Assembly (NCBI RefSeq): GCF_030818655.1
Contig: NZ_JAUTAN010000001.1
Span: forward strand, 992,001 to 1,056,000
DNA length: 64,000 bases
Direction of reading: 5' to 3'
Origin: Nocardioides zeae
GTDB taxonomy: Bacteria; Actinomycetota; Actinomycetes; Propionibacteriales; Nocardioidaceae
Under the pieces are notes generated by a model. The model was not told the origin of the DNA, made no database searches, and saw only the letters and a list, made by a program, of their open reading frames with translations. Below, piece by piece: positions 11,918 through 54,366 of the stretch. Every line of letters begins with the position of its first letter. The stretch's first letter is position 1. Made by a program: the position numbers and the translations under genes.

Positions 11918-12056
11918 CTCGACGCTCGCACCGCGGCGTACGTGACAACTCGACGCGCGAGCCGCGGCGTACGACCCATCTCGACGCGCGAGCCGCGGCG
12001 TACGACCCATCTCGACGCGCGAGCCGCGGCGTACGACCCAACTCGACGACGCTCAG
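11918..12056 (+). repeat. 31-bp tandem array 1 (four units plus a partial)
   Basis: Four contiguous 31-base units start at 11918, 11949, 11980 and 12011, with a partial fifth running into the next gene's end. Units 2-4 are nearly identical (CTCGACGCGCGAGCC, then GCGGCGTACGACCCA). Unit 1 is diverged and ends CGTACGTGACAA. Array 2 at 54243-54366 has the same unit, length and copy number in the opposite orientation. There are no spacers, so it is not a CRISPR. Confidence 0.92.
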
Positions 12057-12691
12057 AAGCCGAGGGTGGCGATCTGGAAGCGGCGCACGGCGAGGTCGGG
12101 GCCGGAGACGTCGACGTCGTGGGCCTGCTCGCGGCCCAGCAGGCGCAGCACCAGCTCCTGCGGGCGGCCCGTGACCACCGCGGGGCCGTCGCCGCGGCGG
12201 AGCACGGTGCGGCGGCCGTTGCGGGCGTCGACGGCCACGAGGGGGGCGCCCACCTTGCGCGTGGCCATCACGGCGACCGGCTTGAACAGCCGCCACAGCT
12301 CGTCCTCGGCCTCGTCGGGGAGGTCGCGGGGCGTCCAGCCGGGCTGGGCGCGCCGCACGTCCTCGTGGTGCACGAAGAGCTCGACCGTGTTGACGAGGCG
12401 GTCGACGGGACCGATCGCCGCCCACGTGAGGAACGGGCGCCGCAGCTGGTCGGCGAGCAGCGGCAGGTCGGCGCGCCCCCACCGCTCCGTGGCGCGCTTG
12501 GTCAGCGGCGACAGGGGCGGGACGAGCTCACCGGCCTGGGCCAGCGGGTTCCGCTCCCGCACCAGGAGGTGGACGACGAGGTCCTTCACCGTCCAGCCGC
12601 CGCACAGCGTCGGGGCGTCGGGGCCGACCTCGACGGCGAGGTCGGCGAGGGCGGAGCGCTCGGCGCGCGCGAAGGTGGGGAAGGTCGACAC
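12053..12691 (-). CDS. TIGR03085-type DinB-like metal-binding protein
   Basis: The 212-residue protein has the DinB/maleylpyruvate isomerase-like N-terminal fold: ERSALADLA, then LCGGWTVKDLVVHLLVRER, which holds the first metal-ligand His, and later ELFVHHEDVRRAQPGW. This layout matches TIGR03085 actinobacterial proteins, a branch of the mycothiol-dependent DinB-like superfamily. Activity is unknown. The GTG start sits 6 bases after a TAGGGT box that overlaps the stop codon of the upstream peptidase gene. The 3' end abuts array 1. Confidence 0.85.
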   Translation of the reverse strand: MSTFPTFARAERSALADLAVEVGPDAPTLCGGWTVKDLVVHLLVRERNPLAQAGELVPPLSPLTKRATERWGRADLPLLADQLRRPFLTWAAIGPVDRLVNTVELFVHHEDVRRAQPGWTPRDLPDEAEDELWRLFKPVAVMATRKVGAPLVAVDARNGRRTVLRRGDGPAVVTGRPQELVLRLLGREQAHDVDVSGPDLAVRRFQIATLGF

Positions 12692-12697
12692 GTCCCG

Positions 12698-12703
12698 ACC
12701 CTA
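12698..12703 (-). promoter_or_regulatory. Leaderless -10 (TAGGGT) overlapping a stop codon
   Basis: The TAG of TAGGGT is the stop codon of the P1 peptidase gene. Six bases follow before the GTG at 12691, so this gene can be transcribed independently of the peptidases. Confidence 0.6.
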
Positions 12704-13813
12704 CGTGCCCGTGCCGCGCGGACCGGTGGCGGCGGCCGCGAAGGCGCTGGGGAACGCCTCGCGGTAGCTGCGCATCGTGCCCCACGGCGTCGTCACCGAC
12801 GTGGCGGCGAGCATCGCGCGCACCACCGCCCGCGCGACCGTCGTGGCGGCGGCGTCGAGGAGCTCGTGGAACCGGAGGGGATGGGTCGCGGGATCGGGCG
12901 CCGGCGCGTCCGGCGGCGCCGTCGACAGCGCGAACAGGGTGTCGCCGTCGAACATCGAGTGCACCGGACGGATGGCGCGCGCGAGGCCGTCGTGCGCCAC
13001 CCCCGCGACCTTCGCGCAGGCCGCCTTCGTGAGGGGGACGTCGGTGGCGACGACGCCGATGGTGGTCGCGAGGGGCGCCCGGCGCGACGGGTCGAGCCCG
13101 GCCGCCAGGTCGTGCGCCGCCCGCAGGTCAGCGGCGTCGGGCCGACGGAGCCCCGCGGCCGGCAGGTCGGCGGGGAGGCAGTGGGGGAGACCCCACAGCT
13201 CGCCCGTCGTCGGGTCGACGCAGGAGCCGACCGCGTTGACCGCCACCAGCGCCCCGACGGTCCCGCCACCGGGCAGCACGGTCGACGCGGAGCCGACACC
13301 GCCGCGCAGGCCACCGGCCCGGGCGCCCGTGCCCGCGCCGACCGGCCCGACGAGCGCGGTCGGTGCGTCGGCGCGTGCCGCGTCGTGCGCCGCCGCCCCC
13401 AGCGCCGCGTCCGGGTGGTGCCGGAACACCCCGCCGCGGCCGAGGTCGAACAGGATCGCCGCCGGCACGATGGGCACGACATCGGCCGGGTCGGCGCCCA
13501 TCGGGAACCCCACGCGGGCGTCGAGGAGCCGCTGCACGACCCCGTCCACCGCCGCCAGGCCGAGCGCCGAACCGCCGCCGAGCACCACCGCGTGGACCCG
13601 CTCGACCAGGTTGCGCGGGTCCAGCAGGTCGGTCTCCCGCGTGCCGGGACCACCCCCGCGGACGTCGACGCCGGCGACCGCGCCGTACGGCGGCGGCAGC
13701 ACCACCGTCGTGCCGGTGAGCCAGCCGGGGTCGGTGCGCTGGGCGTGGCCCACGCGGATGCCCGGCACGTCGAGGACCGAGTTGGTGGGCCCGGTCGGAC
13801 CGGCGGCGTTCAC
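12701..13813 (-). CDS. P1 family (DmpA/S58-like) peptidase
   Basis: The 370-residue protein belongs to the N-terminal-nucleophile P1 peptidases, which self-cleave and act as aminopeptidases. It begins SVLDVPGIRVGHAQR, contains VLGGGSALGLAA, and has LRGGVGSAS, where the self-cleavage and nucleophile Ser is expected. The nucleophile comes from alignment memory of the family, not from proof. It starts 4 bases after the DUF885 gene, so both peptidases are probably one operon. Peptide or beta-amino substrates are possible. Confidence 0.87.
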   Translation of the reverse strand: MNAAGPTGPTNSVLDVPGIRVGHAQRTDPGWLTGTTVVLPPPYGAVAGVDVRGGGPGTRETDLLDPRNLVERVHAVVLGGGSALGLAAVDGVVQRLLDARVGFPMGADPADVVPIVPAAILFDLGRGGVFRHHPDAALGAAAHDAARADAPTALVGPVGAGTGARAGGLRGGVGSASTVLPGGGTVGALVAVNAVGSCVDPTTGELWGLPHCLPADLPAAGLRRPDAADLRAAHDLAAGLDPSRRAPLATTIGVVATDVPLTKAACAKVAGVAHDGLARAIRPVHSMFDGDTLFALSTAPPDAPAPDPATHPLRFHELLDAAATTVARAVVRAMLAATSVTTPWGTMRSYREAFPSAFAAAATGPRGTGT

Positions 13814-13817
13814 GGCG

Positions 13818-15515
13818 TCAGATCCGGGCGAGCGCGGCGACGAGCGGGTCGAGGCCGAGCGAGCCCAGGTCGAGCGCAGACCGGTGGAACGCCTTCAGGT
13901 CGAACGCGTCCCCGTGGCGGGCACGGGCCGCCTCCCGGGCCTCGAGCCAGATGCGCTCACCCACCTTGTAGGACGGCGCCTGCCCGGGCCAGCCGAGGTA
14001 GCGGTTGACCTCGAACCGGATCGTCGCGTCGTCGTCGCGCGAGTGCTGGCGCATGAACGCGAGGCCGAGGTCCGGCGTCCACCGCTCGCCCGGGTGGAAC
14101 CCGAACGGGTTGTCGGCGGGGATCTCGAGCTGCAGGTGCATCCCGATGTCGACGATGACCCGTGCCGCGCGGAACCCCTGGGCGTCCAGCATGCCGAGCC
14201 GGTCGGCCGGGTCGTCGAGGTAGCCCAGCTCGTCCATGAGCCGCTCCGCGTAGAGCGCCCACCCCTCGCCGTGACCCGACACCCAGCACATGGTGCGCTG
14301 CCAGCGGTTGAGCAGCGAGGACCGGTAGGCCGTCTGGCCGATCTGCAGGTGGTGCCCCGGCACGCCCTCGTGGAACACCGTCGTGGTCTCGCGCCACGGG
14401 TGGAACTGCTCGATGCCGTCCGGCACCGACCACCACATGCGGCCCGGTCGGGAGAAGTCCTCGCTGGGGCCCGTGTAGTAGATGCCGCCGTCGTTCGTCG
14501 GCGCCAGGCAGCACTCGATGCGGCGGACCGGCTCGGGGATGTCGAAGTGGACGTCCGCCAGCTCGCCGACCACCCGGTCGGCGAGCTCCTGCATCCAGGC
14601 GCGGAACGGCTCACGGCCCTCGATGCGTCGCGCCGGGTCGCCCTCGAGGTGGGCCACGGCCACGTCGATCGCGTCGGGGCCGGTCGCGTCCGGCGTGATC
14701 CGCGCGGCCGTCGCCCGCATGTCCGCCTCGATGCGGGCCAGCTCCTCCCAGCCCCAGGCGTAAGTCTCTTCCAGGTCGATGGTCGCGCCGAGGAAGAGGC
14801 GCGAGGCCAGCGCGTAGTGGTCGCGGCCGACGGCCTCGACCGCGCGACCCCGGGGCTCCATCTCGTCGGAGAGGAAGAGGCCGAGGGAGGCGAAGGCCGC
14901 CGTTGCCTCGCGCGCCCCGCGCTCGAGCGACGACCGCAGCCCCGCGGGCACCGTGCCCGCCGCCACGCCGCGTCCGACCAGGTCGGCGAACACGCTGCCG
15001 CCGCCCGTCTGGCCGGTCCACCGCTCCAGCTGGGCGGCCACCTCGGCGTACTGCCGCGCCGCGCTCACCCGCCCGTGCGCCGCCTCCTCGGCCAGCGTCA
15101 CCCGCAGGCCCGCGAGGGCACCCGGCACGCCCGCGAGCCGGGCGTCCACCGCCTCCCAGTCCTCGGCGGTCGCGGTCGGCATCAGGTCGAACACCTGCCG
15201 CAGCTCGTGGATCGGCGAGGCGATGACGTTCACCTCGCTGCGGGTGAAGCCCGCCTCGTCGTGCTCGACCCGGAGGCCGACCCGCTCCAGGAACGCCGCG
15301 CGGGCCACGGCCTCCCGGTCGTCGACCGGCGTGGCCGCCCGCACGTCGGCCAGCGCCGCGCGCGCCAGCCGGAGCCGCTCGTCGAACCCCTCGGGGGAGT
15401 AGTCGGTCAGCTCGTGCTCGTGGCCGGCCACCCCGATGCCGGTGGCGGTCACGGGGTCGGCCGCCGCGTGGTCCGCCACGTAGCGCTCGGACCGTTCGTC
15501 AACGCTTCTGCTCAT
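13818..15515 (-). CDS. DUF885 family metallopeptidase
   Basis: The 565-residue protein shows the DUF885 zinc site FHEGVPGHHLQIGQ and downstream GHGEGWALYAERLMDELGY, the expected ligand and active-site pair. No signal peptide is visible, so it is probably cytoplasmic. I chose the ATG at 15515 over an in-frame GTG at 15524 because a TAGGGT box ends 7 bases before it and a GGAGG would be too close to act as a ribosome site. It is the first gene of a peptidase pair and divergent from the GH6 gene. Confidence 0.88.
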   Translation of the reverse strand: MSRSVDERSERYVADHAAADPVTATGIGVAGHEHELTDYSPEGFDERLRLARAALADVRAATPVDDREAVARAAFLERVGLRVEHDEAGFTRSEVNVIASPIHELRQVFDLMPTATAEDWEAVDARLAGVPGALAGLRVTLAEEAAHGRVSAARQYAEVAAQLERWTGQTGGGSVFADLVGRGVAAGTVPAGLRSSLERGAREATAAFASLGLFLSDEMEPRGRAVEAVGRDHYALASRLFLGATIDLEETYAWGWEELARIEADMRATAARITPDATGPDAIDVAVAHLEGDPARRIEGREPFRAWMQELADRVVGELADVHFDIPEPVRRIECCLAPTNDGGIYYTGPSEDFSRPGRMWWSVPDGIEQFHPWRETTTVFHEGVPGHHLQIGQTAYRSSLLNRWQRTMCWVSGHGEGWALYAERLMDELGYLDDPADRLGMLDAQGFRAARVIVDIGMHLQLEIPADNPFGFHPGERWTPDLGLAFMRQHSRDDDATIRFEVNRYLGWPGQAPSYKVGERIWLEAREAARARHGDAFDLKAFHRSALDLGSLGLDPLVAALARI

Positions 15516-15522
15516 GTCCTCC

Positions 15523-15528
15523 ACCCTA
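15523..15528 (-). promoter_or_regulatory. Leaderless -10 (TAGGGT) for the DUF885 gene
   Basis: Seven bases separate the hexamer from the ATG at 15515. It is back-to-back with the GH6 promoter only 15 bases away, forming a compact divergent promoter. Confidence 0.55.
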
Positions 15529-15543
15529 GGAGGAACCGCCGAC

Positions 15544-15549
15544 TACCCT
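15544..15549 (+). promoter_or_regulatory. Leaderless -10 (TACCCT) for the GH6 gene
   Basis: Eight bases separate TACCCT from the ATG at 15558. No ribosome-binding sequence is present in that interval. Confidence 0.5.
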
Positions 15550-15557
15550 CACCCCTC

Positions 15558-16778
15558 ATGAACAGCGGCTCGGGCGACGACGAGGCTCCGGCCCGTCCCG
15601 GCAACCCCCGTCGTCCCTCCGGCGACCTCCCCGGCCACGTGCGTCGGCCCGAGCACGTGCGGCGCGCCGACCCCGCCGCCGTGGCCGCGGCGAACCGGAC
15701 CGGTCGGCAGCAGCGCTCGGGGCCGTCGCCGTCCGAGGTGGCCGAGGCTCGCCGCCAGCAGCGACGCCGGCGACGCCGGACGTGGCTCGTCGGCGCCGTC
15801 GTCGTGCTCCTGGCGGCCGTCGTCATCGGGCTCTCGCTCCGGCACGGCCCCCTGGCCCGCAACCTCCCCGGCGCGGCCGACCCCCAGGAGACGAACCCCT
15901 TCGAGGGGCGTGACCTGTACGTCGCGAGCGGCACCCAGGCGGCCGGCGCCGCCGACGCGGCACGGTCGGCGGGCCGGACGCGGGACGCCGAGGTGCTGGA
16001 CCGGCTCGCCGACGTGCCGACCGCGACCTGGTTGACCCCCGAGGCGCTCCCGCGCGGGCAGGTCGGGACCTTCGTGCGAGGGATCGCCCAGGCGGCGCTG
16101 GAGGCCGACGACGCGGCCGTGCTCGTCGTCTACGGCATCACCGACCGCGACTGCTCGGGCGACTTGTCCGCGGGCGGCCTGCCGCCGGACGACTACGCCG
16201 CGTGGGTGGGGGAGATCGCGTCCGCCGCCGGGGTCGCGGAGGGGCACGTCGCCGTCGTGCTCGAGCCGGACGGCCTGGCCTCCACGTTCGACTGCGGCAA
16301 CACCGACCAGCGGGTCGGCCAGCTGGCGGGGGCGCTCGGCAGCCTCGTCGACGCGGACGTGCCGACGTACGTCGACGCCGGGCACTCCAACTGGCGCTCG
16401 GTCGACGAGATGGCCGACCTCCTGCGTCGCGTCGACGTCTCCCGGGTGCGTGGGTTCTCCACCAACGTCGCGGCCTACCAGTCCGACGCCGACGAGCGCG
16501 CGTACGCCGAGGCGCTCAGCTCGGCGCTGGGCGGCACCCACTACGTGATCGACAGCGGACGCAACGGCGCGCCCTCGCCGGCGTCGGGCGACTGGTGCAA
16601 CCCGTCGGCCCGCCTCCTCGGCCAGGACCCTGCCGCGGTGACGGACGGGAGCCGCCAGGACGCGCGGCTCTGGATCAAGCCGCCGGGGGAGAGCGACGGC
16701 ACCTGCAACGGGGGGCCGGACGCCGGCACCTTCTGGGTGGACCGGGCGCTCGAGATGGCCTTCGCCAGCGGCTGGTGA
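15558..16778 (+). CDS. Membrane-anchored GH6 glucanase (cellulase family)
   Basis: The 406-residue protein has a basic cytoplasmic N-terminus (RRQQRRRRRRTW), one membrane helix at about residues 74-95 and an exported GH6 domain. Family motifs are in order: ATWLTPEA, VVYGITDRDCSG (conserved Asp), VVLEPDGLAS (Asp of the general acid), YVDAGHSNW, GFSTNVAAYQ, YVIDSGRNG, WCNPSARLLG and LWIKPPGESDG. GH6 enzymes cleave beta-1,4-glucan. There is no carbohydrate-binding module and a retained anchor, so a role in processing self-made glucan is as likely as cellulose digestion. Its neighbours include a GT2 synthase. Confidence 0.92.
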   Translation: MNSGSGDDEAPARPGNPRRPSGDLPGHVRRPEHVRRADPAAVAAANRTGRQQRSGPSPSEVAEARRQQRRRRRRTWLVGAVVVLLAAVVIGLSLRHGPLARNLPGAADPQETNPFEGRDLYVASGTQAAGAADAARSAGRTRDAEVLDRLADVPTATWLTPEALPRGQVGTFVRGIAQAALEADDAAVLVVYGITDRDCSGDLSAGGLPPDDYAAWVGEIASAAGVAEGHVAVVLEPDGLASTFDCGNTDQRVGQLAGALGSLVDADVPTYVDAGHSNWRSVDEMADLLRRVDVSRVRGFSTNVAAYQSDADERAYAEALSSALGGTHYVIDSGRNGAPSPASGDWCNPSARLLGQDPAAVTDGSRQDARLWIKPPGESDGTCNGGPDAGTFWVDRALEMAFASGW

Positions 16779-16865
16779 CGCGCCCACGGGCGTCCATGGC
16801 ACGACCTGAGTGCAACGCCACGGCAATCTTGCGGAACGAAGCCTCGGGTCATGCGGCCCCGTTGC

Positions 16866-16871
16866 TAGCCT
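16866..16871 (+). promoter_or_regulatory. Leaderless -10 (TAGCCT) for the response regulator
   Basis: Six bases separate TAGCCT from the GTG at 16878. The 99-base gap after the GH6 gene shows no ribosome-binding site at the start. Confidence 0.55.
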
Positions 16872-16877
16872 GAGCGG

Positions 16878-18050
16878 GTGGAACAGCCTCCCGCCCGCCG
16901 CGTCGCCGTCATCATCGAGGACGACCCGGACGTCGCCGACCTCCTCGACCTCGTGCTCACCCAGAGCGGGTACGTCACCCACGTGACCCGCAACGGGGTC
17001 GACGGCCTCGCCGCGGTGCGTGAGCACGACCCGGTGCTGACGACGCTCGACGTGTCGATGCCGGGCATGGACGGGTTCGCCGTGGCGCGACGCATCCGCG
17101 ACTTCAGCTCGACGTACCTCATCATGATCACGGCGCTGAGCGACGAGATCGACGTCGTGATGGGCCTCGAGGCCGGCGCCGACGACTACCTGACGAAGCC
17201 GTTCCGCCCCCGCGAGCTGCGCGCCCGCGCCGAGTCGATGCTGCGGCGCCCGCGCGACCGGGGCGAGACCGGTCGTGGCGACGGTCCCGAGAACGACCCG
17301 CAGCCGCAGCACGACGCCACGCCGGCGGTGCCCGAGCGCGAGGCCACCGGCTGGGCCGTCGACACGCGGCGCCAGTTCAGCGAGGGCAACCGGGCGACGA
17401 TCGGGCCCGTGCCGACGGAGCCGGAGCCCCAGCAGGCCCCGCGCCACGTGACGCCGCCCCCGGCCGAGCAGCCCGAGCCGCAGCTCCCCCCGATCCCGCC
17501 GCTGCCGCCGGTCCCGCCGACGGCGCCGACGTACGCCGAGCCCCTGCCCGCGGCGTACGAGCAGCCGGCGCAGCAGCAGGTGACCCCGCCGGTGCAGCAG
17601 CCTCCCTACCAGCAGCAGGTGCCCCCGCCCGTCCAGCAGCCCGTCGCGGCCGCGCCGGCCATCGGCACGACCCCGGCGTCCGCGATGGCGGCGGGCGCGG
17701 CGCAGCAGGTCGTCGCGAGCGACGGCTGGGTCCGCCACAACAACCTGGCGCTCAACCCGACCTCGCGCGTCGTGCTCGTCGACGGGCGGGGCGTGGACCT
17801 GACGACGGTGGAGTTCGACCTCCTCGCGTCGCTGGTCAGCACGGGCCGTCGGGTGCGCTCCAAGGCCGACCTGGTGCTCACCATGCGCGGCCAGGACTAC
17901 GTGACGGCGTACTTCGTCAACGAGGCCGACAAGCGCACCGTGGAGGCCCACCTGGAGGACCTGCGACGCAAGCTCGGCGACGTCGGTGCCGTGCCCCGGC
18001 TCATCGAGCCCGTCCGCGGTGTCGGCTACCGCATGGCGGCGACCATCTGA
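16878..18050 (+). CDS. OmpR-type response regulator with long Pro/Gln-rich linker
   Basis: The 390-residue protein starts with a receiver domain (IIEDDPDVADLL acidic pocket; LDVSMPGMDG phospho-acceptor Asp; MITALSDE; DDYLTKPF Lys) to about residue 125. A segment of roughly 150 residues then has very high Pro, Gln and Ala content. A winged-helix DNA-binding domain ends the protein (TTVEFDLLASLVS ... TVEAHLEDLRRKLGD ... RGVGYRM). OmpR-type linkers are normally under 20 residues, so this one is remarkable. No histidine kinase gene lies nearby. Its target may be the adjacent GH6 and GT2 genes; that is inference from position. Confidence 0.9.
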   Translation: MEQPPARRVAVIIEDDPDVADLLDLVLTQSGYVTHVTRNGVDGLAAVREHDPVLTTLDVSMPGMDGFAVARRIRDFSSTYLIMITALSDEIDVVMGLEAGADDYLTKPFRPRELRARAESMLRRPRDRGETGRGDGPENDPQPQHDATPAVPEREATGWAVDTRRQFSEGNRATIGPVPTEPEPQQAPRHVTPPPAEQPEPQLPPIPPLPPVPPTAPTYAEPLPAAYEQPAQQQVTPPVQQPPYQQQVPPPVQQPVAAAPAIGTTPASAMAAGAAQQVVASDGWVRHNNLALNPTSRVVLVDGRGVDLTTVEFDLLASLVSTGRRVRSKADLVLTMRGQDYVTAYFVNEADKRTVEAHLEDLRRKLGDVGAVPRLIEPVRGVGYRMAATI

Positions 18051-18083
18051 TCCCGGTGCCGTCCGGGCACCGCCCCGACGTGA

Positions 18084-18118
18084 CGAGGCCCCTCCGACCG
18101 GTGGTCGGAGGGGTCTCG
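18084..18118. terminator. Strong bidirectional hairpin terminator
   Basis: A 16-base-pair stem (one G-T pair, loop of three) lies between the convergent response-regulator and lipoprotein genes. CGAGGCCCCTCCGACC pairs with GGTCGGAGGGGTCTCG. There is no long T-run, as is common in GC-rich actinobacteria. Confidence 0.8.
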
Positions 18119-18137
18119 TGCTGTGCCCGCGGGGCGG

Positions 18138-18878: not shown

Positions 18879-18922
18879 GCTCTCTTCCGAGGTGGGGGCG
18901 GGCAGGACGGGGACGGCGGGCC

Positions 18923-20401: not shown

Positions 20402-20493
20402 GGGAGCATCCTTCCCCGCGACCTGCTCGTTGCGCCGGAGTTGACGCGAACTTCTCCTCAGTTTTCCGTCAAACGCCTGCTCAGCGGCTCCCC

Positions 20494-20736
20494 TCAGCGG
20501 GGGAGCCCCGACGCCCGCCACGCGCCGGCGCCGGCGTGGTGGGGACCCCGGAGGGCGCGACGCGGCGCCGCCCACTCCGGCGTGCGCCGCGCGGCGGGGG
20601 CGGGAGCGGCGCTGCCGAGCGCGGCGAACACCGCGACGACGGCCGCGACCTCCTCCGGCGTCGCGTCGCCGTTGACGACGCGCAGCAGGGGCCGCGCGGT
20701 CGTCTCCGCCGCCGCGGGGGTCTCCTCGCCGCTCAC
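20494..20736 (-). CDS. accE: Acyl-CoA carboxylase epsilon subunit
   Basis: The 80-residue protein begins with an Ala/Thr/Glu-rich head and contains [18 protein letters not shown], the signature of AccE, then a Trp-Arg-rich tail (RTPEWAAP). AccE stabilises the alpha-beta carboxylase complex in actinobacteria. GTG overlaps the stop of the beta subunit, as expected for obligate partners. It was probably missed by length-based gene calls in other genomes. Confidence 0.9.
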
Positions 20737-36979: not shown

Positions 36980-37058
36980 GGGCGTAGTCCCTGACGTTCT
37001 GCACGCGACACGCCGTCCTCCGGGCACGGCACGCTGCGGAACGTCAGGGACTACGCCC
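36980..37058. repeat. Perfect 20-bp inverted repeat, 39-nt loop
   Basis: GGGCGTAGTCCCTGACGTTC at 36980-36999 is repeated as its exact reverse complement at 37039-37058. One G-T pair extends the stem to 24 bases. It is 43 bases after the second LCP gene. There is no T-run, and the loop is much larger than in usual terminators. Two more inverted repeats with similar geometry lie at 54.4-54.5 kb. Confidence 0.9.
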
Positions 37059-37092
37059 GTACGGCGCGGGATCGCCCGTACGGCGCGGGATC
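37055..37092 (+). repeat. 19-bp tandem repeat, two copies
   Basis: GCCCGTACGGCGCGGGATC occurs twice in a row (37055-37073 and 37074-37092). It shares the core CGTACGGCGCGG with the 31-bp unit of array 2, so it may be a related family member. Confidence 0.75.
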
Positions 37093-37493
37093 GGCCGTGC
37101 CGGGGGGCGCCTGGGCCTGTCGCGGAAGTGTGCGGCTGGTGCGGTCCCGAGCGTGACGGTCCTGCCCCAGCCGCACTGTTCCTGCCCCGGCGGCCGCGGC
37201 CCCGCCAGGACCTGCGCCCAGCAGCCACCTCGACGGGTGGCGCGTGACACGTTCGCCTCGGATCGCGGCGAGGCCTGCCGACGGGGGAGAGGTACGGAAA
37301 ACCGGGCCCCGTCGGCGTGTCATGCTCCGAAACGGCTCGGTTTGACGAATCATCTCGGAAGTGCACGGCGTGGCGGCTTGATAATCACACCGTTGTAGTT
37401 CTCGCGTTCGGCTTGCCTGTTACTCATGTGACGTGTGTGATGTCCGACGTCTCGTGTGAACAACTTCCCCCGTCGCGCGCAGGAGCCCTCTCG
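37093..37493. other. 401-base gap before the amidase gene
   Basis: The first 90 bases hold the 58-nt element. From about 37260 the base composition becomes markedly less GC-rich, with GATAAT at 37380-37385, and stretches such as CATGTGACGTGTGTGATG near 37428 that could be an operator. No -35 at the right distance is clear. Small frames on both strands here have no homology I recognise. Confidence 0.45.
37124..37181. repeat. 58-nt intergenic element, copy B
   Basis: This is the partner of 11802-11860. GTGCGGCTGG (37130-37139) pairs perfectly with CCAGCCGCAC (37167-37176), and outer GAA/TTC ends can pair across a 2x2 bulge. Together they form a hairpin with a 27-nt loop. The ends are better conserved between the copies than the middle. 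Confidence 0.5.
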
Positions 37494-44298: not shown

Positions 44299-44374
44299 GG
44301 GACCACCCTGCCGGACGGGTCGGCAGGCCCGTCCATCGGGCTCTCTAGCAGACTGCTTGTAACACACGGTGGGC

Positions 44375-44804: not shown

Positions 44805-44823
44805 ACGGGGAAGGGGGTCGGCC

Positions 44824-45870: not shown

Positions 45871-45929
45871 ACCGGCGCGATCCGGGAGGGGTGCTGTCGC
45901 GGCGGGCCCCGGTGGGGCAAGGTGTCCTC

Positions 45930-47893: not shown

Positions 47894-48398
47894 GGTCGGG
47901 CGCCCCGGGCGGTCGCCCGGCCGCGCGGAGGGTCGCCGAGCCGAAGCGGGCGTGGACGTGCACGTCGTCCCACCCGCCCTCCCAGCTCAGCCAGGCCAGC
48001 GCCGACGTGGGCATCTCGACGTCGGTCCCCGCGAGGGTGGAGGCCAGGTCGGTGAGACCCGGGTCGTGGCCGACGACGACCACGGCGTGGTGCTCGTCGG
48101 CCAGGTCCGCCACCAGCGCGGCCAGGTGGCCCGCGTCGAACGTGTAGACGCGCTCGTGCGGCACCGGCGGCGGGGGCGCGGCGAGATGTGCCGCCGCCAG
48201 GTCCCACGTCGTGCTCGCCCGCACGGCGGGCGAGACCAGCGCGAGGTCGAGTCGCGGGCCGTGGGCGGCGAGCCAGGCGCCCGCCTCGGCCGCCTGCCGT
48301 CGTCCACGGCCTCCGATGGGCCGTTCCCGGTCGGTCGTCCCCGTGGACCAGTCCGACTTCCCGTGGCGCAGGAGCACCAGGTCGCGGGTCGGGGACAT
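47883..48398 (-). CDS. SixA-type histidine phosphatase
   Basis: The 171-residue protein begins DLVLLRHGKSDWSTG with the phospho-His RHG motif and has VVGHDPGLTDLA with the second active-site His. This is a branch-2-like histidine phosphatase; SixA removes phosphate from histidine phosphocarriers, but the substrate here is unknown. A TACCCT box 7 bases before the ATG suggests a leaderless start. Confidence 0.9.
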   Translation of the reverse strand: MSPTRDLVLLRHGKSDWSTGTTDRERPIGGRGRRQAAEAGAWLAAHGPRLDLALVSPAVRASTTWDLAAAHLAAPPPPVPHERVYTFDAGHLAALVADLADEHHAVVVVGHDPGLTDLASTLAGTDVEMPTSALAWLSWEGGWDDVHVHARFGSATLRAAGRPPGAPDLRA

Positions 48399-48405
48399 GG
48401 CCCGC

Positions 48406-48411
48406 AGGGTA
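48406..48411 (-). promoter_or_regulatory. Leaderless -10 (TACCCT) for the SixA gene
   Basis: Seven bases separate TACCCT from the ATG at 48398. The gene is 30 bases from the end of the aldehyde oxidoreductase gene, so it must have its own promoter. Confidence 0.55.
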
Positions 48412-48440
48412 GCGGGGTCGGGCGTCGGGCGGGTGTCGGC

Positions 48441-50568
48441 TCAGATGTCGAGGAAGTGGTCTGCCGTGATCGGCAGCGACCGCACCCGCACCCCCGGTGG
48501 CGTGGAACGTAGCGTTGGCGACCGCGGCCGAGGTGCCGACGATCCCGATCTCCCCGATGCCGCGCGAGCCCATCGGGGTGGCGAGGTGGTCCTCCTCCTC
48601 CAGCCACTCCGCCTGCAGGTCGAGCACGTCGGCGTGGGCCGCGACGTGGTAGGTCGCGAGGTCCTGGGTGACGACGTGACCGGTGCGCGGGTCGCGCCAG
48701 CCCTCCTCGTGCAGCGCGGCGGACAGGCCCATCGTCAGGGCCCCCAGCAGCTGGGACCGCGCGGTCATGGGGTTGATGACGCGGCCGACCGAGTAGACGC
48801 CGTGCAACCGGGAGACCCGCACCTCGCCGGTCCAGCGGTGCACGCGGGCCTCGGCGAACACCGCGCCGAAGGAGTGCATCGCGTGGCCGTCGGTGTCGGT
48901 GTAGGCGCCGCTCGCGGCGGTGGTGTGGAGCCCGGGGTCGGGGGTGGCGCCGTGGTCGTGGCGGAACTGCTGCGCGGCCGCGGCGATGGCGCTGCCCCAC
49001 GACGAGGTGCCGGACGAGCCGCCGGCCACCGTCGCGAACGGGAGGTCGGTGTCGCCGATCGCGAGGTCAATGCAGTCCGGCGCGACCCGCAGCGCGTCGG
49101 CGGCGATCTGCACCAGGACGGTGCGGGCGCCGGTGCCGAGGTCGACCGCGCCGACGTCGACCCCGTACCGACCCTCGCCGAGCGACCGGATCCGCGCGGT
49201 GTTGCCCGGCGAGAACAGCATGGGGTACGTCGCCGACGAGACCCCCGTGCCGACCCACCAGTCGCCCTCGGCCCGGGAGCGGGGCCGGGCCGGTCGCTCC
49301 GACCAGCCGAACCGCTCGGCGCCGAGACGCAGGCACTCGACGAGACGGCGCCCGTTGAACGGCTTGCCGCTCTCGGGGTCGACCTCCGGCTCGTTCCGCT
49401 CCCGCAGGTCGATCGGGTCGACGTCCGTGGCCACGGCGAGCTCGTCCAGTGCCACCTCGTGGGCGTGCATGCCCGGCATCTCCCCGGGCGCGCGCATCCA
49501 GGACGGCACGGGCACGTCGAGCGCGGCCACGCGGTGGGTCGTGGCGCGGTGGGGCGCGGCGTACATCATGCGGGCCGCGGTGGCGGACTGCTCGGCGAAC
49601 TCCTTGATGCGCGACGTCTGCGACGTCGTGTCGTGGCGGAGCACGACGAGGGTGCCGTCGGGCTCGGCGCCGAGGCGCACGCGCGAGCGGGTGGCGGTGC
49701 GGTAGCCGGTGAGCGCGAACATCTGCTGCCGCGTCACGGCGAGGCGCACCGGGTGGCCGGGGAACGCCAGGGCGGCGAGGGCCGCCGCGACCTCGGGGGC
49801 GTGGGGGAGGCCCTTGCTGCCGAAGCCGCCACCGACGTACGGCGCGAGCACGCGCACCTGCTCCGGCTCGAGGCCCAGCACCGGCGCGAGCGTGGCGCGC
49901 ACCGCGTGCACGGCCTGGGTGGAGTCGTGGAGGGTGAGCAGCGCGCCGTCCCAGGTGGCAGTGGCGGCGTGCGGCTCCATCGGGCTGTTGAACTCGTGGG
50001 GCGTGGTGTAGGTCGCGTCGACGTTCACGGGGGCGGCGGCGAGCGCCGCGTCGGGGTCACCGTCGACGGTGTCCGTCTCCGCGCCCGCGTTGACCTCCTC
50101 GGGGGCGTAGGTCGCGCTGTGCTCGTCGAAGACGACCTCGGCCGCCTCCTCGTCCTGGTGCACCCGCACGAGGAGGGCGCCCTCGCGGGCGGCCTCCGAC
50201 GAGGTCGCGACGACGAGCGCGACGATCTGCCCGCGGAAACCGATGTGCTCGTCCTGGAGCACGGCGAGCTCGCGGTCCTCGGTGTCGGCGAGCCGGGGGG
50301 CGCTGGTGTGGTCGAGCACGCGCCGCACGCCCCGGTGCGCGAGCGCGTCGCTCGCGTCCACCCGCAGCACCCGTCCGCGGGCGGTGGTCGAGGTGACGAG
50401 CCAGGCGTGCAGCACGTCGCCGTCCACCGGGTGCTCGACCGCGTACGTCGCCGCGCCGGTCACCTTCGCGACGCCGTCCTGCCGGTCGAGGTGCCGTCCC
50501 ATCGCCCGGGCCGGCACCTGCTCGGGGACGATCTGCGTGACGGCTGCCGTGCTGTCAGGGCTGCTCAT
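48441..50568 (-). pseudogene. paoC: Molybdenum aldehyde oxidoreductase large subunit, 3' frameshift
   Basis: This is the Mo-MCD subunit of the xanthine oxidase family (PaoC/CoxL-like). The frame from 50568 covers nearly all of the protein, including GGGFGSKGLPHAPEV, MRAPGEMPGMHAHE and GSRGIGEIGIVG with the active-site Glu. After NATFHATG the frame turns to nonsense. Deleting one base in the GGGGG run (48491-48495) restores VRVRSLPITADHFLDI and a stop at 48441, giving 708 residues, the family length. As sequenced, translation would run on about 1.1 kb through the phosphatase and dehydrogenase genes. It is either an assembly error or a recent lesion losing only the last 17 residues. Confidence 0.92.
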
Positions 50569-51554
50569 CGCGCACCGCCCGCGAGCCGGAGGAGCGTGTG
50601 GGCCGTCAGGTTGCGCACCATCGCCACCTTGTAGGCGGTCTGGTCGGTCGTCACGGCCGCCGCCAGCTCCGCGGAGGCCGCCGCCCGGGCGCTGTCCTCG
50701 GTGAGCACGGCGCCGCGGAGGGCCTCCTCCGCGACGTACGCCCGCCAGGGGCGGTGGGCCACGCCGCCCCACGCGAGCCGGACGTCCCGCACCACGTCGC
50801 CGTCGAGGTCGAGGGCTGCGGCGACGGAGACGAGCGCGAAGGCGTAGGACGCGCGGTCCCGCGCCTTGGCGTACGTCGAGGCCGGGGCCACCGCGCTGCC
50901 GGGCAGCTCGACGGCCGTGATGAGGTCGCCGTGCCGGAGGACCGTGTCGTGCTCGGGATGGTGGCCCGGCAGGCGGTGCAGCTCCGTCATCGGCACACGG
51001 CGCTCGCCGTCGGGACCGAGCACCACGACGGCCGCGTCGAGCGCGGTCAGCGCGACGGCGAGGTCGGACGGGTGGGTGGTCACGCACGCCTCGCTCGCGC
51101 CGAGGATCGCGTTGTAGCGGCCGTAGCCCTCGAGGGCCGAGCACCCGGTGCCCGGCTCGCGCTTGTTGCAGGCCGTGGTGACGTCCTGGAAGTAGACGCA
51201 GCGCGTGCGCTGGAGCAGGTTGCCGGCGGTGGTCGCCTGGTGGCGGATCTGGCCCGACGCTCCCGCCAGCAGGGCCCGCGCGACGGCGGGGAACCCGCGA
51301 CGGACCGCGGGGTGGGCGGCCAGGTCGCTGTTGCGGACGGCGGCGCCGACGCGGAGCCCGCCGCCCGGGAGCTCCTCGACGGTGTCGAGGGGGAGGCGGG
51401 AGACGTCGACGAGCGTGCCCGGGCGTGCGACGCCGAGCTTGAGGTGGTCGACCAGGTTGGTCCCGCCCCCGAGGAAGCGGGCGTCGGGGTCGTCCGCGAC
51501 GAGCGCGACGGCCGCGGCCGCGTCGGTCGCGCGGTGGTAGGTCAGCTCCTTCAT
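50565..51554 (-). CDS. paoB: Aldehyde oxidoreductase FAD subunit (YagS/PaoB-like)
   Basis: The 329-residue protein has the FAD-binding CO-dehydrogenase fold: RFLGGGTNLVDHLKLG, TAGNLLQRTRC, and GTGCSALEG. Four Cys in RTRCVYFQDVTTACNKREPGTGC agree with the extra 4Fe-4S cluster of PaoB. It passes electrons between the 2Fe-2S and Mo subunits. Overlaps of four bases join it to both other subunits, giving stoichiometric expression. Confidence 0.93.
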   Translation of the reverse strand: MKELTYHRATDAAAAVALVADDPDARFLGGGTNLVDHLKLGVARPGTLVDVSRLPLDTVEELPGGGLRVGAAVRNSDLAAHPAVRRGFPAVARALLAGASGQIRHQATTAGNLLQRTRCVYFQDVTTACNKREPGTGCSALEGYGRYNAILGASEACVTTHPSDLAVALTALDAAVVVLGPDGERRVPMTELHRLPGHHPEHDTVLRHGDLITAVELPGSAVAPASTYAKARDRASYAFALVSVAAALDLDGDVVRDVRLAWGGVAHRPWRAYVAEEALRGAVLTEDSARAAASAELAAAVTTDQTAYKVAMVRNLTAHTLLRLAGGAR

Positions 51555-52084
51555 GCCCGCACCTCCCGGTCGGTCGTCTGCTGGCCCGCCTGGCGGACCG
51601 CCGCGAGGATGCCGGCGTAGGCACCGCAGCGGCAGAGGTTGCCGCTCATGCGCTCGCGGATCTCGTCGTCGCCGTCGGGGTCCTCGGCCGCGAGGTCGTC
51701 CGTCACCAGGCTCGGGTGCCCGGCGCGCAGCTCGTCGAGCACGCCGACGGCGGAGCACACCTGCCCCGGGGTGCAGTAGCCGCACTGGTAGCCGTCGTGG
51801 TCGAGGAACGCCTGCTGCACCGGGTGGAGGTCGCCGTCCGGGGAGGCGAGGCCGCCCGCGGTGACGATCTCGGCGCCGTCGTGGGCCACGGCGAGGGCGA
51901 GGCACGTGAGGTGGCGGCGACCGTCGAGGAGCACGGTGCAGGACCCGCACTGGCCGTGGTCGCAACCCTTCTTCGGCTGCGTCACGCCGAGCCGCTCACG
52001 CAGCGCGTCGAGCAGGGTCGTGCGGGTGTCGACGGTGACGGCGCACCGCTCCCCGTCCACGGTGAGGGCGATGTCGGCGTCCAT
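51551..52084 (-). CDS. paoA: Aldehyde oxidoreductase 2Fe-2S subunit (YagT/PaoA-like)
   Basis: The 177-residue protein has a plant-type ferredoxin site GCDHGQCGSCTVLLDG and a second 2Fe-2S domain with QCGYCTPGQ and NLCRCGAY. I start at 52084 (MDADIALTV) because a TACCGT box ends 6 bases before it, although the frame is open further upstream. It is the first gene of paoA-paoB-paoC. No Tat signal like that of E. coli PaoA is visible, so the enzyme is probably cytoplasmic. Aromatic or small aldehydes are likely substrates. Confidence 0.93.
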   Translation of the reverse strand: MDADIALTVDGERCAVTVDTRTTLLDALRERLGVTQPKKGCDHGQCGSCTVLLDGRRHLTCLALAVAHDGAEIVTAGGLASPDGDLHPVQQAFLDHDGYQCGYCTPGQVCSAVGVLDELRAGHPSLVTDDLAAEDPDGDDEIRERMSGNLCRCGAYAGILAAVRQAGQQTTDREVRA

Positions 52085-52154
52085 GCGGCGACGGTACCCA
52101 CGGGGCCACAAGCCGCCCGGTGCGTGAACGGGGCGTGGGTACCGTCGCGGCATG
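52082..52154. promoter_or_regulatory. Mirror-image divergent leaderless promoters
   Basis: CATGCGGCGACGGTACCCACG at 52082-52102 and its near-exact reverse complement at 52134-52154 differ in one of 21 positions. Each arm contains a TACCGT box (52091-52096 minus, 52140-52145 plus), six bases, and an ATG, so two oppositely oriented leaderless starts sit in an inverted repeat with a 31-base centre. The symmetry could also bind a dimeric regulator. Confidence 0.8.
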
Positions 52155-52373
52155 AGCGACTACACGGACGAGCAGATCGAGACCATCCAGGCCGTCGTGG
52201 ACCGCGTGAGCTCCTGGCAGGACGGAGCGACCGAGGGCACCGTGGCGGACGAGCTGGCCAAGGGCTTCAACGAGGCCGGCATCGGGGTGCCCGCCGACGA
52301 CCAGGCCCGCCTGGCCGACGCCATCCAGGACGCCCACGGCGAGGTGAAGGCCGCGGAGGTCCTCGGCCCCTGA
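52152..52373 (+). CDS. Small acidic protein of unknown function
   Basis: The 73-residue, soluble, acidic protein (EQIETIQAVVDRVSSW, DELAKGFNEAGIGV) is likely helical with no Cys. I do not recognise a family. The ATG is fixed by the TACCGT box and by the mirrored promoter shared with paoA, which implies it is expressed in the same condition. It could be a small regulator or stability factor, but this is speculation. Confidence 0.7.
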   Translation: MSDYTDEQIETIQAVVDRVSSWQDGATEGTVADELAKGFNEAGIGVPADDQARLADAIQDAHGEVKAAEVLGP

Positions 52374-52388
52374 CCGCTGGTTTCACGC

Positions 52389-52428
52389 GGCATAGGAACT
52401 TGCCTATGCCTCATAGGAAATTGCATGA
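52389..52428. promoter_or_regulatory. TetR-type operator cluster
   Basis: GGCATAGG-aacttg-CCTATGCC (52389-52410) is a perfect 8-bp palindrome. The adjacent CATAGGAAATTGCATG (52412-52427) repeats a half-site. The region is AT-rich for this genome and lies 43 bases before the TetR start, so the regulator probably binds here and controls its own operon. Confidence 0.8.
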
Positions 52429-52470
52429 TCCTCCCCGTCCGGCACCGTGCCGGGCGGGGAGGAGTGCGTC

Positions 52471-53049
52471 GTGCCCCGGGTCGGACTGACCCCTGACCGT
52501 GTCACCGTCGCCGGTGCCGAGCTCGCCGACGAGGTGGGCTTCGCGTCGCTGACCGTCACGGCGGTCGCCCAGCGCCTCGGTGTCCAGCAGGCGAGCGTCT
52601 ACGCGCACGTCGGCGGCGTGCGGGACCTGCAGGTGCGCATCGCGCACCTCGCGCTGGCCGAGCTGGCCGACGCGACGGCCGAGGCCGTGGCCGGGCGGTC
52701 CGCCGGTGCGGCGCTGACGGCGTACGCCGCCGCGTTCCGCGCCTATGTGCGTGCACACCCGGGGCGGTACGCCGCGATGCGGATGCCGCTCGAGCCGACC
52801 GAGGCCGCGAGCAGTGCGGGGCCGCGGTACGCCGCGACCACGCGGGCGCTGCTCCGCGGGTACGCGGTGCCCGAGGAGGACGCGAACCACGCCGTACGGC
52901 TGGTCGGGGCGTTGCTCCACGGGTTCGTCAGCCTCGAGCTGGGCGGGTCGTTCGACCACAGCGAGCCGCCGGCGGAGCAGTCCTGGCACCGTGCCGTGGC
53001 CGCGCTCGACACCCTCCTCACGACGTGGAACGCCCCGGAGGACGCATGA
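52471..53049 (+). CDS. TetR/AcrR family transcriptional regulator
   Basis: The 192-residue protein has an N-terminal helix-turn-helix (GFASLTVTAVAQRLGVQQASVYAHVGG) and a C-terminal ligand domain of the WHG type (FRAYVRAHPGRYAAMRM; LHGFVSLELGGSFD). I chose the GTG at 52471 because GGGGAGGAG lies at proper distance before it, over an upstream in-frame GTG at 52447. It overlaps the SGNH hydrolase start by four bases (ATGA), so it likely controls that gene. Confidence 0.88.
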   Translation: MPRVGLTPDRVTVAGAELADEVGFASLTVTAVAQRLGVQQASVYAHVGGVRDLQVRIAHLALAELADATAEAVAGRSAGAALTAYAAAFRAYVRAHPGRYAAMRMPLEPTEAASSAGPRYAATTRALLRGYAVPEEDANHAVRLVGALLHGFVSLELGGSFDHSEPPAEQSWHRAVAALDTLLTTWNAPEDA

Positions 53050-54230
53050 CCGGCTTGCTCGACGTACCCCTGACGCCTGCGCACCTGCGCGGAGCGGTCG
53101 AGGTGGAGCGCACCCCGCGGGGCGGCCTGCTGCCGCACCGCCTGCCCGCGTGGGCGCGGACCCGCCTGCCCGACCCCCAGCTGCTCATGGTCGAGGCACA
53201 GCCGTCGGGGGTGCGGCTCGCGCTGCGCACGGCGGCCACCGTGCTCGAGCTGGAGACGCGGGCGACGAAGCGGGTCTACGTGGGGATGCCCCCGCGGCCC
53301 GACGGTGTCTACGAGGTCGCGGTCGGGGGCGAGGTCGTCGCGTCGGGCTCGGTCGGCGGCGGCGACGTGCTCACCGTCGACCTGGGCGCCGGCACGATGA
53401 CCCCGAGCGACGGCGGCACCGGGCTCGTGCGGTTCGCGGGGCTGCCGGGTGGTCCGGGCGGGACCGGTGGGGTGCGGGACCTCGAGGTCTGGCTGCCGCA
53501 CGACGAGCAGACCGAGCTGGTGGCGCTGCGGGCGGACGCGCCGGTGGAGGCTGCCCCGCCGGACGGGCGGCGCCGGTGGCTGCACCACGGCAGCTCGATC
53601 AGCCACGGGTCCAACGCGGCGACCCCGACGGGCACGTGGCCGGCGGTGGCCGCGGCGCTCGCCGACGTCGACCTGCTCAACCTGGGGTTCGGCGGCAGCG
53701 CGCTGCTCGACCCGTCGACGGCGCGGACCATGCGGGACCTCCCCGCCGACGTCATCAGCGTCAAGCTCGGCATCAACCTGGTCAACCTCGACCTCATGCG
53801 GCTGCGCGCGCTCGGTCCGGCGGTCCACGGGTTCCTCGACGTGCTGCGCGACGGTCATCCCACGACGCCGCTGCTCGTGGTCTCGTCGATCTACTGCGGG
53901 ATCCACGAGGAGACGCCCGGACCGTCGGTGCCGGACGTCGAGGCGGCACGGGAGGGCCGGCTGCGGTTCGTCGCGGCGGGCGACCCGGCCGAGGTGGCGC
54001 AGGGGCGGCTCACGCTCGAGGTCGTCCGCGAGCAGCTCGCCGCAGTCGTGGCGCAGCGGTCGGTCGACGACCCGCACCTGGCGTACCTCGACGGGACGGT
54101 CCTCTACGGCGCCGCCGACGCCGAGGCCCTGCCCCTGCCCGACGGCCTGCACCCCGACGCCGCGACCCACCGCCTCATCGGCGAGCGCTTCGCCGCGGCC
54201 GCCTTCGGCGTCGGTGGCCCGCTGGCGTAG
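53046..54230 (+). CDS. SGNH/GDSL-type hydrolase with N-terminal beta domain
   Basis: The 394-residue protein has a beta-sandwich-like first half and an SGNH second half: HHGSSISHGSNA (nucleophile Ser), NLGFGGSALLD (Gly and Asn), VKLGINLVN and GLHPDAATH with the Asp-His pair. The layout resembles GDSL esterases acting on sugar esters or lipids. No signal peptide is visible. It is translationally coupled to the TetR regulator, so the regulator's ligand may be its substrate or product. Confidence 0.85.
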   Translation: MTGLLDVPLTPAHLRGAVEVERTPRGGLLPHRLPAWARTRLPDPQLLMVEAQPSGVRLALRTAATVLELETRATKRVYVGMPPRPDGVYEVAVGGEVVASGSVGGGDVLTVDLGAGTMTPSDGGTGLVRFAGLPGGPGGTGGVRDLEVWLPHDEQTELVALRADAPVEAAPPDGRRRWLHHGSSISHGSNAATPTGTWPAVAAALADVDLLNLGFGGSALLDPSTARTMRDLPADVISVKLGINLVNLDLMRLRALGPAVHGFLDVLRDGHPTTPLLVVSSIYCGIHEETPGPSVPDVEAAREGRLRFVAAGDPAEVAQGRLTLEVVREQLAAVVAQRSVDDPHLAYLDGTVLYGAADAEALPLPDGLHPDAATHRLIGERFAAAAFGVGGPLA

Positions 54231-54242
54231 TCGCGCGCCGAG

Positions 54243-54366
54243 TTGTCACGTACGGCGCGGCTCACGCGTCGAGGTGGGTCGTACGGCGCGGCTCACGCGT
54301 CGAGGTGGGTCGTACGGCGCGGCTCACGCGTCGAGGTGGGTCGTACGGCGCGGCTCACGCGTCGCG
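54243..54366 (-). repeat. 31-bp tandem array 2 (four units)
   Basis: Four contiguous 31-base units start at 54243, 54274, 54305 and 54336. Read on the minus strand they match array 1 at 28 of 31 positions. Three units end GTACGACCCAC and one ends CGTACGTGACAA, as in array 1, but the odd unit is at the opposite end. This is 13 bases after the hydrolase stop. Confidence 0.92.

Follow-up and report, generated by a model that had tools for sequence, protein, structure and literature searches.

To our knowledge, it is poorly settled by what means GC-rich actinobacteria terminate transcription between closely packed convergent genes when U-tract terminators are absent. The window analysed here, a stretch of 64,000 nucleotides from a Nocardioides genome of 4.38 Mb in one contig, raises this question at two loci, where short tandem arrays directly follow the 3′ ends of genes. 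What these arrays are, and what they might do at such positions, is addressed below.

Two oriented arrays in the window

Both arrays have a period of 31 bp, with TRF scores of 211 and 232. A 25-bp core with up to three mismatches yields eight matches, four per array and none elsewhere in the window, and no match in 100 dinucleotide shuffles, which confirms the positions given in the first-pass annotation. The arrays and their neighbours are as follows.

11539..11793, plus strand: ORF beyond array 1, running convergently, without a Pfam match
11918..12049, minus strand: array 1, four 31-bp units with an additional partial CTCGACG, in sense with the minus-strand gene
11930..11956, minus strand: type A unit, stop-distal in array 1, sense ...GTTGTCACGTACG...
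12053..12691, minus strand: gene with its 3′ end abutting array 1, weak MDMPI_N match (PF11716, E 1.7e-4; 22.8 bits, under the Pfam cut-off of 24.2)
53046..54230, plus strand: GDSL/SGNH-type hydrolase gene, stop codon abutting array 2
54235..54366, plus strand: array 2, four units of 31 bp, in sense with the plus-strand gene; the stop of that gene precedes the first 27-mer by 4 nt
54235..54261, plus strand: type A unit, stop-proximal in array 2
54380..54435, unstranded: hairpin GAAGGGTCACG...CGTGACCCTTTC, lying past array 2 and before the convergent gene
54467..54524, unstranded: hairpin CCCCGGGACGTCATGC...GCATGACGTCCCGGGG with a 16-bp perfect stem, neighbouring array 2
54542..55402, minus strand: convergent 60KD_IMP (YidC-like) gene beyond array 2

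The ORF at 11539..11793 is preceded by a His_biosynth gene (PF00977). Units of the two arrays agree at 28 of 31 bases, and each array comprises three units ending in ACCCA(A/C/T) and one ending in TGACAA, as first described. This odd unit had been placed at opposite ends of the arrays, which holds in unit orientation only; by coordinate it occupies the low-coordinate end of both. The arrays do lie just past gene 3′ ends, the stop codon being 3 nt from array 1 and 4–12 nt from array 2, depending on the choice of unit start. Searching the window against Rfam gave no match at the gathering threshold and, near array 1, a sub-threshold match only (11735–11795, E 0.69).

A dispersed family at gene 3′ ends

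Genome-wide, the unit is found with up to three mismatches at 159 + 148 places, compared with 3 + 2 for a reversed control pattern. The repeat is therefore not confined to the two loci of the window, and the dispersed intergenic family that had been proposed is borne out by both counts and positions. The stretches counted comprise 305 unit copies in 77 half-arrays at 52 sites. A collapsed assembly is an unlikely source of the arrays, because the genome forms one contig and two relatives, each assembled separately, have the element at the orthologous positions too. Many copies occur in just three of 294 genomes of the family, namely the window genome (G000) and two relatives rich in units (G298 and G299), one of which is N. 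zeae.

Neighbouring units are spaced by exactly 31 bp in 216 of 228 cases, and 76 of these 216 differ at two or more of four variable bases. Between arrays, identity amounts to 0.40 at the four variable bases versus 0.83 at the other 27. A CRISPR, already discounted at first pass, is ruled out: just 4 nt separate the 27-bp repeats, identical in 97 of the 216 neighbours, and unique spacers of repeat length are absent. A 27-bp conserved sequence at such fixed spacing, despite four variable bases, would suit phased sites for a sequence-specific DNA-binding protein, which might be nucleoid-associated or might block RNA polymerase in a polar manner, as at rDNA terminator arrays. Against this, the 51 site positions compared show an even distribution over the chromosome (KS p = 0.74), and the half-arrays are balanced between the strands (40 vs 37). 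As judged by this layout, which has neither position nor strand bias, the nucleoid or segregation role suggested in the first-pass annotation receives no positive support and was rejected. Moreover, a roadblock 2–10 nt past the stop would be expected to end the RNA before the stop codon.

Among the half-arrays whose outer end faces a gene 3′ end, this end lies -1 to 16 nt from the stop codon, and in a single orientation, in 45 of 52 in G000; the same distance is found in 24 of 28 in G298 and 18 of 25 in G299. The inner end comes that near to a gene 3′ end in 2 of 74, 1 of 40 and 1 of 37 half-arrays, respectively. We propose, with moderate confidence, that the arrays derive from a dispersed palindromic 3′-end element by expansion of its arms, and that this element may act at the RNA level as clustered-hairpin terminators or insulators; termination or insulation is the most likely role. 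Counting against a terminator, 12 of the 74 G000 half-arrays are located between divergent genes, where termination of the outer neighbour makes no sense, and five of these are the main arrays of DUF222 genes.

Pairing and folding of the repeat

Of the roles first suggested for the repeat, RNA hairpins fit best. In 39 paired sites (38 distinct) the two arms co-vary: 89.4% of cells pair, compared with 82.8% in shuffles, and 62 cells are changed on both sides, compared with 31.1 (sd 3.7) in shuffles and at most 21 in slid controls. Each of these two measures was reached by none of 500 shuffles, while measures counting pairs or types are not unusual (reached in 55 and 81 of 500). Gene conversion between arms could be another source of this covariation. 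Inner arms of the same site share variable columns at 0.78 versus 0.56 for arms of different sites (G000; 0 of 2000 permutations); the test is weaker in the relatives, where 56 (G298) and 125 (G299) of 2000 permutations reach the observed value.

Consecutive units can pair as well, and preferentially on the sense strand. Column 21 pairs with column 4′ in 81% of 216 neighbours in sense and 12% in antisense in G000, with corresponding values of 88% and 6% in G298 (64 neighbours) and 50% and 18% in G299 (22 neighbours). The four variable bases constitute the loop of this inter-unit pairing. Type B units carry G21 more often when another unit follows than when they are last (167/199 vs 25/42 in G000, p = 0.001; 54/55 vs 33/40 in G298, p = 0.009), with the caveat that G21 versus C21 largely tracks unit type. 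The loop accounts for a fixed length combined with free sequence, which, together with the co-varying arms, argues against the DNA-binding protein.

Predicted folding depends on the architecture of the site. In G000, z is below -2 at 19 of 21 paired sites, in G298 at 9 of 9 and in G299 at 10 of 11; the two arrays with two arms that were folded from other genera (L340 and L341) also fall below this value. A stable hairpin 3′ of the stop codon is also predicted for array 2 (sense z = -5.0, antisense -0.5) and not for array 1, whose sense transcript shows no significant structure (z = +1.0) and thus counts against the hairpin reading. The same applies to the single-arm arrays, which, in contrast to the two-armed sites, are not palindromes and fold just modestly: the mean sense z is -1.8 in G000 (11 of 30 below -2), -2.4 in G298 (9 of 14) and about 0 in G299 (0 of 6). 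In addition, sequence conservation exceeds what hairpin function alone would need. By eye, no U-tract follows the hairpins in the element sequences inspected.

In the favoured reading, transcription leaving a gene would run into the element no more than a few nucleotides past the stop codon. A two-armed transcript is predicted to fold into a hairpin of about 20–25 bp and a tandem arm into a chain or rod of hairpins formed between units, on the sense strand only and with the four variable bases looped out. The folded RNA might then end transcription or protect the mRNA 3′ end, each arm serving its own gene where genes converge. Extra units would have arisen by tandem duplication of arms, mostly in G000.

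Orthologous sites, DUF222 genes and known systems

At orthologous sites the relatives mostly carry fewer units and now and then a single palindromic hairpin. Over 40 sites shared by G000 and G298, the totals are 233 and 90 units, a difference presumably due to slippage having added units in G000 and not to the relatives having lost them. At locus L183 of N. zeae a 26-bp stem with a 6-nt loop sits between convergent stops (z = -7.4), and hairpins of this type are likely the ancestral form of the element. Six of the 40 G298 sites lack a unit at up to four mismatches, two of them with nearly nothing between the flanks. These empty sites, the strong lineage difference and the restriction to three of 294 genomes would also fit a selfish or neutral REP-like palindrome that spreads without serving the host, its stop-proximal position reflecting tolerated insertion in short convergent gaps. 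We regard such a repeat as unlikely: conserved columns are held while the four loop bases are much freer, the arms co-vary, and no direct target duplication is visible at the two empty sites compared, the flanks of which have diverged. Furthermore, the RAYT profile (Y1_Tnp, PF01797) found nothing in six genomes at E <= 0.01 and matched 6 of 14 control genomes, E. coli included; on this basis a RAYT-mobilised REP was rejected.

An array lies directly upstream of 17 of the 24 DUF222 genes of G000, all 17 main arrays having the same orientation to the gene (P of at least 17 about 1e-27 under random placement). Among the other seven, five are free of units nearby even at low stringency, and in two cases another called gene separates the array from the DUF222 gene. 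The adjoining proteins fall into three divergent families sharing a single array type: family A matches the DUF222 profile at the borderline (24.1–27.1 bits, cut-off 24.4), family B clearly (88.3 bits), and family C has no Pfam match. The HNH profile (PF01844) stays below cut-off: one A protein matches at E 0.043, and one protein of G013, a further genome, at E 0.53. The promoter boxes of the DUF222 genes resemble damage-type boxes, to which we presume they belong, and the genes are probably damage-inducible. The orientation of the array before such a gene would let it act on RNA polymerase approaching that gene, and it would thereby insulate the gene from read-through. A little-understood multi-copy family, DUF222/13E12, is hereby tied to a specific upstream DNA element.

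This association could also mean that the array is the target or end sequence of a mobile, homing-type DUF222 (HNH-like) gene, arrays without a gene being empty or vacated sites. Accordingly, the array 2 site holds a DUF222 gene in G298 (L146) and, by eye, its apparent 3′ tail in G299, and in G013 a 22-bp repeat precedes 9 of the 18 DUF222 loci that were examined. We nevertheless consider homing decidedly improbable, given that 35 of 52 array sites have no directly adjoining DUF222 gene, that three divergent protein families use one array type and that the HNH matches are weak. Of the 13 sites of families A and C, the 10 compared all have the gene in the orthologous G298 locus too, so these copies are not recent, and some 50 arrays beside 24 nuclease-like genes would presumably be self-damaging unless protected.

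Similar 21–22 bp units with the core CGAGNNGTCAC adjoin stop codons in other members of Nocardioidaceae, and apparently do so in Kineosphaera as well. The 22-bp repeats of G013 have position, core and gene association in common with the 31-bp family and do not fold (8 of 8 with sense z between -1.0 and -0.1), which counts against the hairpin reading. These periods are likewise near whole helical turns and, as the unfolded repeats do, favour protein sites, which on balance we still rate quite improbable. Rather unlikely, in our estimate, is a broader, undescribed actinobacterial 3′-end system built on tandem CGAGNNGTCAC units that repeat at whole helical turns (21, 22 and 31 bp) and start a few bases from stops. 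A trans-acting factor co-evolving with the units would recognise them as a polar signal to halt transcription, one dedicated purpose being the insulation of damage-inducible DUF222 (HNH-like) genes, and RNA hairpins would have been added later, in the N. zeae group.

The 22 DUF222 loci fetched from G073 and G028 have no comparable upstream repeat, TRF reporting three other short repeats. A class-wide scan for the tandem core matched 17 of 394 genomes, the reversed control also matching in a few, with flanks read at seven loci, five of them from three family genomes other than that of the window. Four matches within Nocardioidaceae (G000, G097, G150 and G204) look related; the other 13 seem to be coding or chance repeats by their matched strings. 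The exact two-unit pattern had no match in a contig collection from which records of this or very near genomes are possibly absent. A looser core pattern matched 38 stretches, 21 from N. zeae, three from Kineosphaera limosa and 14 others; the five read among these 14 (Antrihabitans, Rhodococcus and three MAGs) are chance or coding by eye. The repeat is not described in the literature searched, weak evidence of novelty because the search covered open-access texts only and had no synonym matching.

With its dozens of oriented, sequence-tagged elements, which vary in copy number and occupy orthologous positions in three close species, the family makes termination, mRNA end protection and insulation directly testable. 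Among known systems, MIRU are tandem intergenic repeats of an actinobacterium that differ in copy number between relatives; their unit length and sequence differ from the 31-bp unit, which is here the arm of a palindrome. REP13E12 likewise has DUF222 genes in multiple copies, their C-terminus weakly HNH-like, and differs in that 17 of 24 genes here stand behind an oriented tandem array. In the Sal-box (TTF-I) terminator arrays of rDNA, oriented tandem sites lie right past a gene end, as do the 31-bp arrays; no binding protein is known here, and RNA pairing is better supported than Sal-box-like protein binding. TRIT denotes the tuberculosis Rho-independent terminator.

REP/BIME elements of enterobacteria and Pseudomonas are likewise dispersed intergenic palindromes lying partly near stop codons; the present elements differ by their 31-bp direct arrays, their sequence and their DUF222 association. 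According to PMC12306157, 260 of 496 E. coli REPs were proposed to act on translation, a later study counted 446 of 4,072 no more than 15 nt from a stop, and REPs near stops are reported to stall ribosomes. TRIT, of which a model is mentioned in PMC3526491, and hairpin-cluster terminators share hairpins 3′ of genes, clustered near stop codons; according to PMC8355165, about 58–66% of hairpin units are found no further than 20 nt from the stop, GC-rich genomes favour hairpin clusters and a U-trail is unnecessary. The present family, with its tandem arm expansion and lineage-specific conserved sequence, is best read as one of clustered-hairpin terminators or insulators that resemble REP and TRIT but have neither a RAYT gene nor a visible U-tract.

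Repeat unit, copy number and distribution

Both tandem arrays are present in the window as the first-pass annotation had described them, each consisting of four 31-bp units that adjoin a gene stop codon. The genome under study, G000, is a single contig (C1) of 4,380,404 bases, and the features concerned are:

G000:C1:992001-1056000, the window
window 11918..12049 (-), array 1
window 54235..54366 (+), array 2

In sense orientation to the neighbouring gene, the type B unit is composed of GCGTCGAGTTGGGTCGTACGGCGCGGC followed by four variable bases, while in the type A unit GTTGGGTCG is replaced by GTTGTCACG. Neighbouring units of G000 are spaced by exactly 31 bases in 216 of 228 pairs, including 76 whose members are unlike at two or more variable bases. 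Between arrays of G000, identity amounts to 0.83 at the 27 conserved columns versus 0.40 at the four variable columns; within arrays the values are 0.88 and 0.67. Many G000 sites display two arms pointing inwards. In mixed arms a type A unit is often innermost (e.g. BBBA), and the order ABBB is also found, array 2 being an example.

The suggestion that the unit belongs to a dispersed family is borne out by whole-genome totals for G000, in which the core with four free bases and up to 3 mismatches gave 159 + 148 matches versus 3 + 2 for a reversed control. A mismatch-limited scan of 47 G000 stretches (46 fetched around listed matches plus the window; 543,660 bases) yielded at least 305 units in at least 77 half-arrays (arms of units in one direction) of 1 to 12 units each. 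A second scan with another pattern and limit gave at least 76 half-arrays, forming at least 52 sites; as the stretches were drawn from the matches listed, more sites may exist. Among 294 genomes of the family, just three carry the type A pattern at high frequency, namely G000 (61 places) and its close relatives G298 (29) and G299 (81); five further genomes have one or two places each, at 2 mismatches. The core pattern occurs at 0 to 14 places per genome in 146 other genomes of the genus Nocardioides, a set that excludes G298 and G299, and judged by eye these places, among the matches listed, look like chance.

Further repeats lie in the window. The hairpin GAAGGGTCACG...CGTGACCCTTTC (54380-54435), found as an inverted pair just once in the G000 stretches, and the type A unit have GTCACG(T/A)ACG in common. 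At 36980-37098 a perfect inverted repeat of 20 bp, whose loop measures 39 nt, adjoins a 19-bp tandem repeat, CGCCCGTACGGCGCGGGAT.

Position relative to genes

Genes were called with a purpose-written simple codon-usage caller, not a published gene finder. By these calls, 74 of 76 G000 half-arrays lie outside genes, the remaining two both being situated in stretch L140, in which element and called gene overlap. Of the 74, 52 have their outer end directed towards the 3' end of a gene, at a distance of -1 to 16 nt in 45 of these 52; the inner end is equally close to a gene 3' end in just 2/74. Corresponding numbers are 24/28 (outer) and 1/40 (inner) in G298, and 18/25 and 1/37 in G299. The other 22 in G000 are directed towards a start codon, 14 to 241 bp away. 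Convergent regions harbor 30 and divergent regions 12 of the 74 half-arrays; among the 251 intergenic regions of 30 bp or more in these loci, a background that contains the array regions themselves, 48 are convergent and 55 divergent.

Profile A1, built from array-adjacent DUF222-type proteins, gave 26 matches in G000, corresponding to 24 genes, two of them in two pieces. An array is located directly upstream of 17 of the 24, with no called gene intervening, and past another called gene at two (L117 and L137); no array was found at five. The outer end of the main array is directed away from the gene in all 17 and at L117 and L137, an orientation that fits a role in insulation. The array-adjacent proteins fall into three families, of which A and C are about 30% identical and B is clearly DUF222 (45% identical to a protein of the congeneric genome G013). 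These genes likely encode nucleases, a tentative label because all Pfam matches to an HNH domain were below cut-off. Promoter boxes at array-linked DUF222 loci resemble, by eye, what we take to be SOS or RecA-NDp types. Downstream of a DUF222 gene in G298 a short CCCGCCGCCCGGCT-type repeat was observed (L146, about 11800-11990).

A second dispersed hairpin, GACGTCATG...CATGACGTC, is situated at window 54467-54524 and in L100, L119, L120, L132, L177 and L178. The G000 stretches contain 7 inverted pairs against 0 direct pairs as control, G299 has 9 against 2, and G298 has 13 against 3; all seven G000 sites lie outside called genes, five in convergent regions. Beside array sites, a hairpin-like motif, GAAATGTGCG...GCACATTTC, can be seen in L118 (about 5090), L262 (about 9650) and the window (11800-11870), the G298 convergent gap of array 1 being among the sites, with few copies by a strict pattern.

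Orthologous sites and related repeats

Within the stretches fetched, 40 of the 52 G000 sites could be matched through both flanks to G298 and 20 to G299. The 40 sites hold 233 units in G000 versus 90 in G298, and G000 exceeds G298 at 32 of them, matches it at 6 and falls below it at 2. The 20 sites hold 130 units in G000 versus 57 in G299, with G000 exceeding G299 at 18 and matching it at 2. At the site of array 2, G298 carries 9 units and G299 carries 4; at that of array 1, G298 carries a single unit. In this comparison, which takes in no outgroup, the higher unit numbers of G000 are read as expansion, and units may instead have been lost from the relatives. Six of the 40 G298 sites contain no unit with up to 4 mismatches allowed. 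At two of these, L125 and L101, the flanks nearly abut and no target duplication is clearly visible. Some orthologous sites carry a single hairpin; one in N. zeae, for example, has a stem of 26 bp and a loop of 6 nt. Integrase-core (rve) ORFs of equal length lie between both arms in L122 (5173-5952) and L123 (5682-6461); in G298 the orthologous gaps are far shorter.

In G013, a 22-bp tandem repeat is located upstream at 9 of 18 fetched DUF222 loci, in most cases starting, by eye, a few bases past the stop of the preceding gene. Its unit occurs 34 times at up to 3 mismatches, partly outside the examined loci; in L281, away from them, arms begin directly after stop-like codons on both sides. The same core is found in arrays of the Nocardioidaceae genomes G097 (22 bp), G150 (22 bp) and G204 (21 bp), and in L332, L341 and L340 a TGA, located by eye and not through gene calls, precedes the array by a few bases. 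In Kineosphaera limosa three places are similar, one of which begins a few bases past a TGA; their 8-kb loci gave no match to the array-adjacent DUF222-type proteins. From core, position and arrangement we infer that all these repeats and the 31-bp repeat may share a common ancestry.

Predicted folding and possible function

Pairing was assessed at 39 sites with two arms, 38 of them distinct, using the inner arms without their loops. There, 89.4% of cells pair, and 62 cells are altered on both sides versus 31.1 (sd 3.7) in shuffles and at most 21 in slid controls. Neither the number of pairs with a double change (10 versus 7.9 in shuffles) nor that of further pair types (21 versus 18.8) is unusual at these sites, and the A-to-B switch, shared by the two arms of a site, is the most frequent double change. 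A unit in a tandem arm can pair through its columns 19-24 with columns 1-6 of the unit that follows, which places the four variable bases within the 7-nt loop. The middle inter-unit pair is possible in 81% of G000 neighbours in sense versus 12% in antisense (G298, 88% versus 6%; G299, 50% versus 18%). Folding z-scores below -2 against shuffles were obtained for 19/21, 9/9 and 10/11 two-armed sites and for 11/30, 9/14 and 0/6 single arms of at least 3 units in G000, G298 and G299, respectively. Array 2 has z -5.0 in sense versus -0.5 in antisense and is predicted to form one rod of inter-unit pairs, not separate small hairpins; array 1 shows no significant fold against shuffles (z +1.0).

In the simplest account, the element is a predicted 3'-end hairpin that would end transcription or protect the mRNA 3' end and, where arms have expanded, would act as clusters. 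We give this account an even chance, because the 22-bp relatives in G013 do not fold and some arrays lie between divergent genes. As to known hairpins, one study locates 66% of those in clusters' class and 58% of the single ones no more than 20 nt from stops and describes U-trails as dispensable (PMC8355165), and another reports ribosome stalling for E. coli REPs at most 15 nt from stops (PMC12306157).
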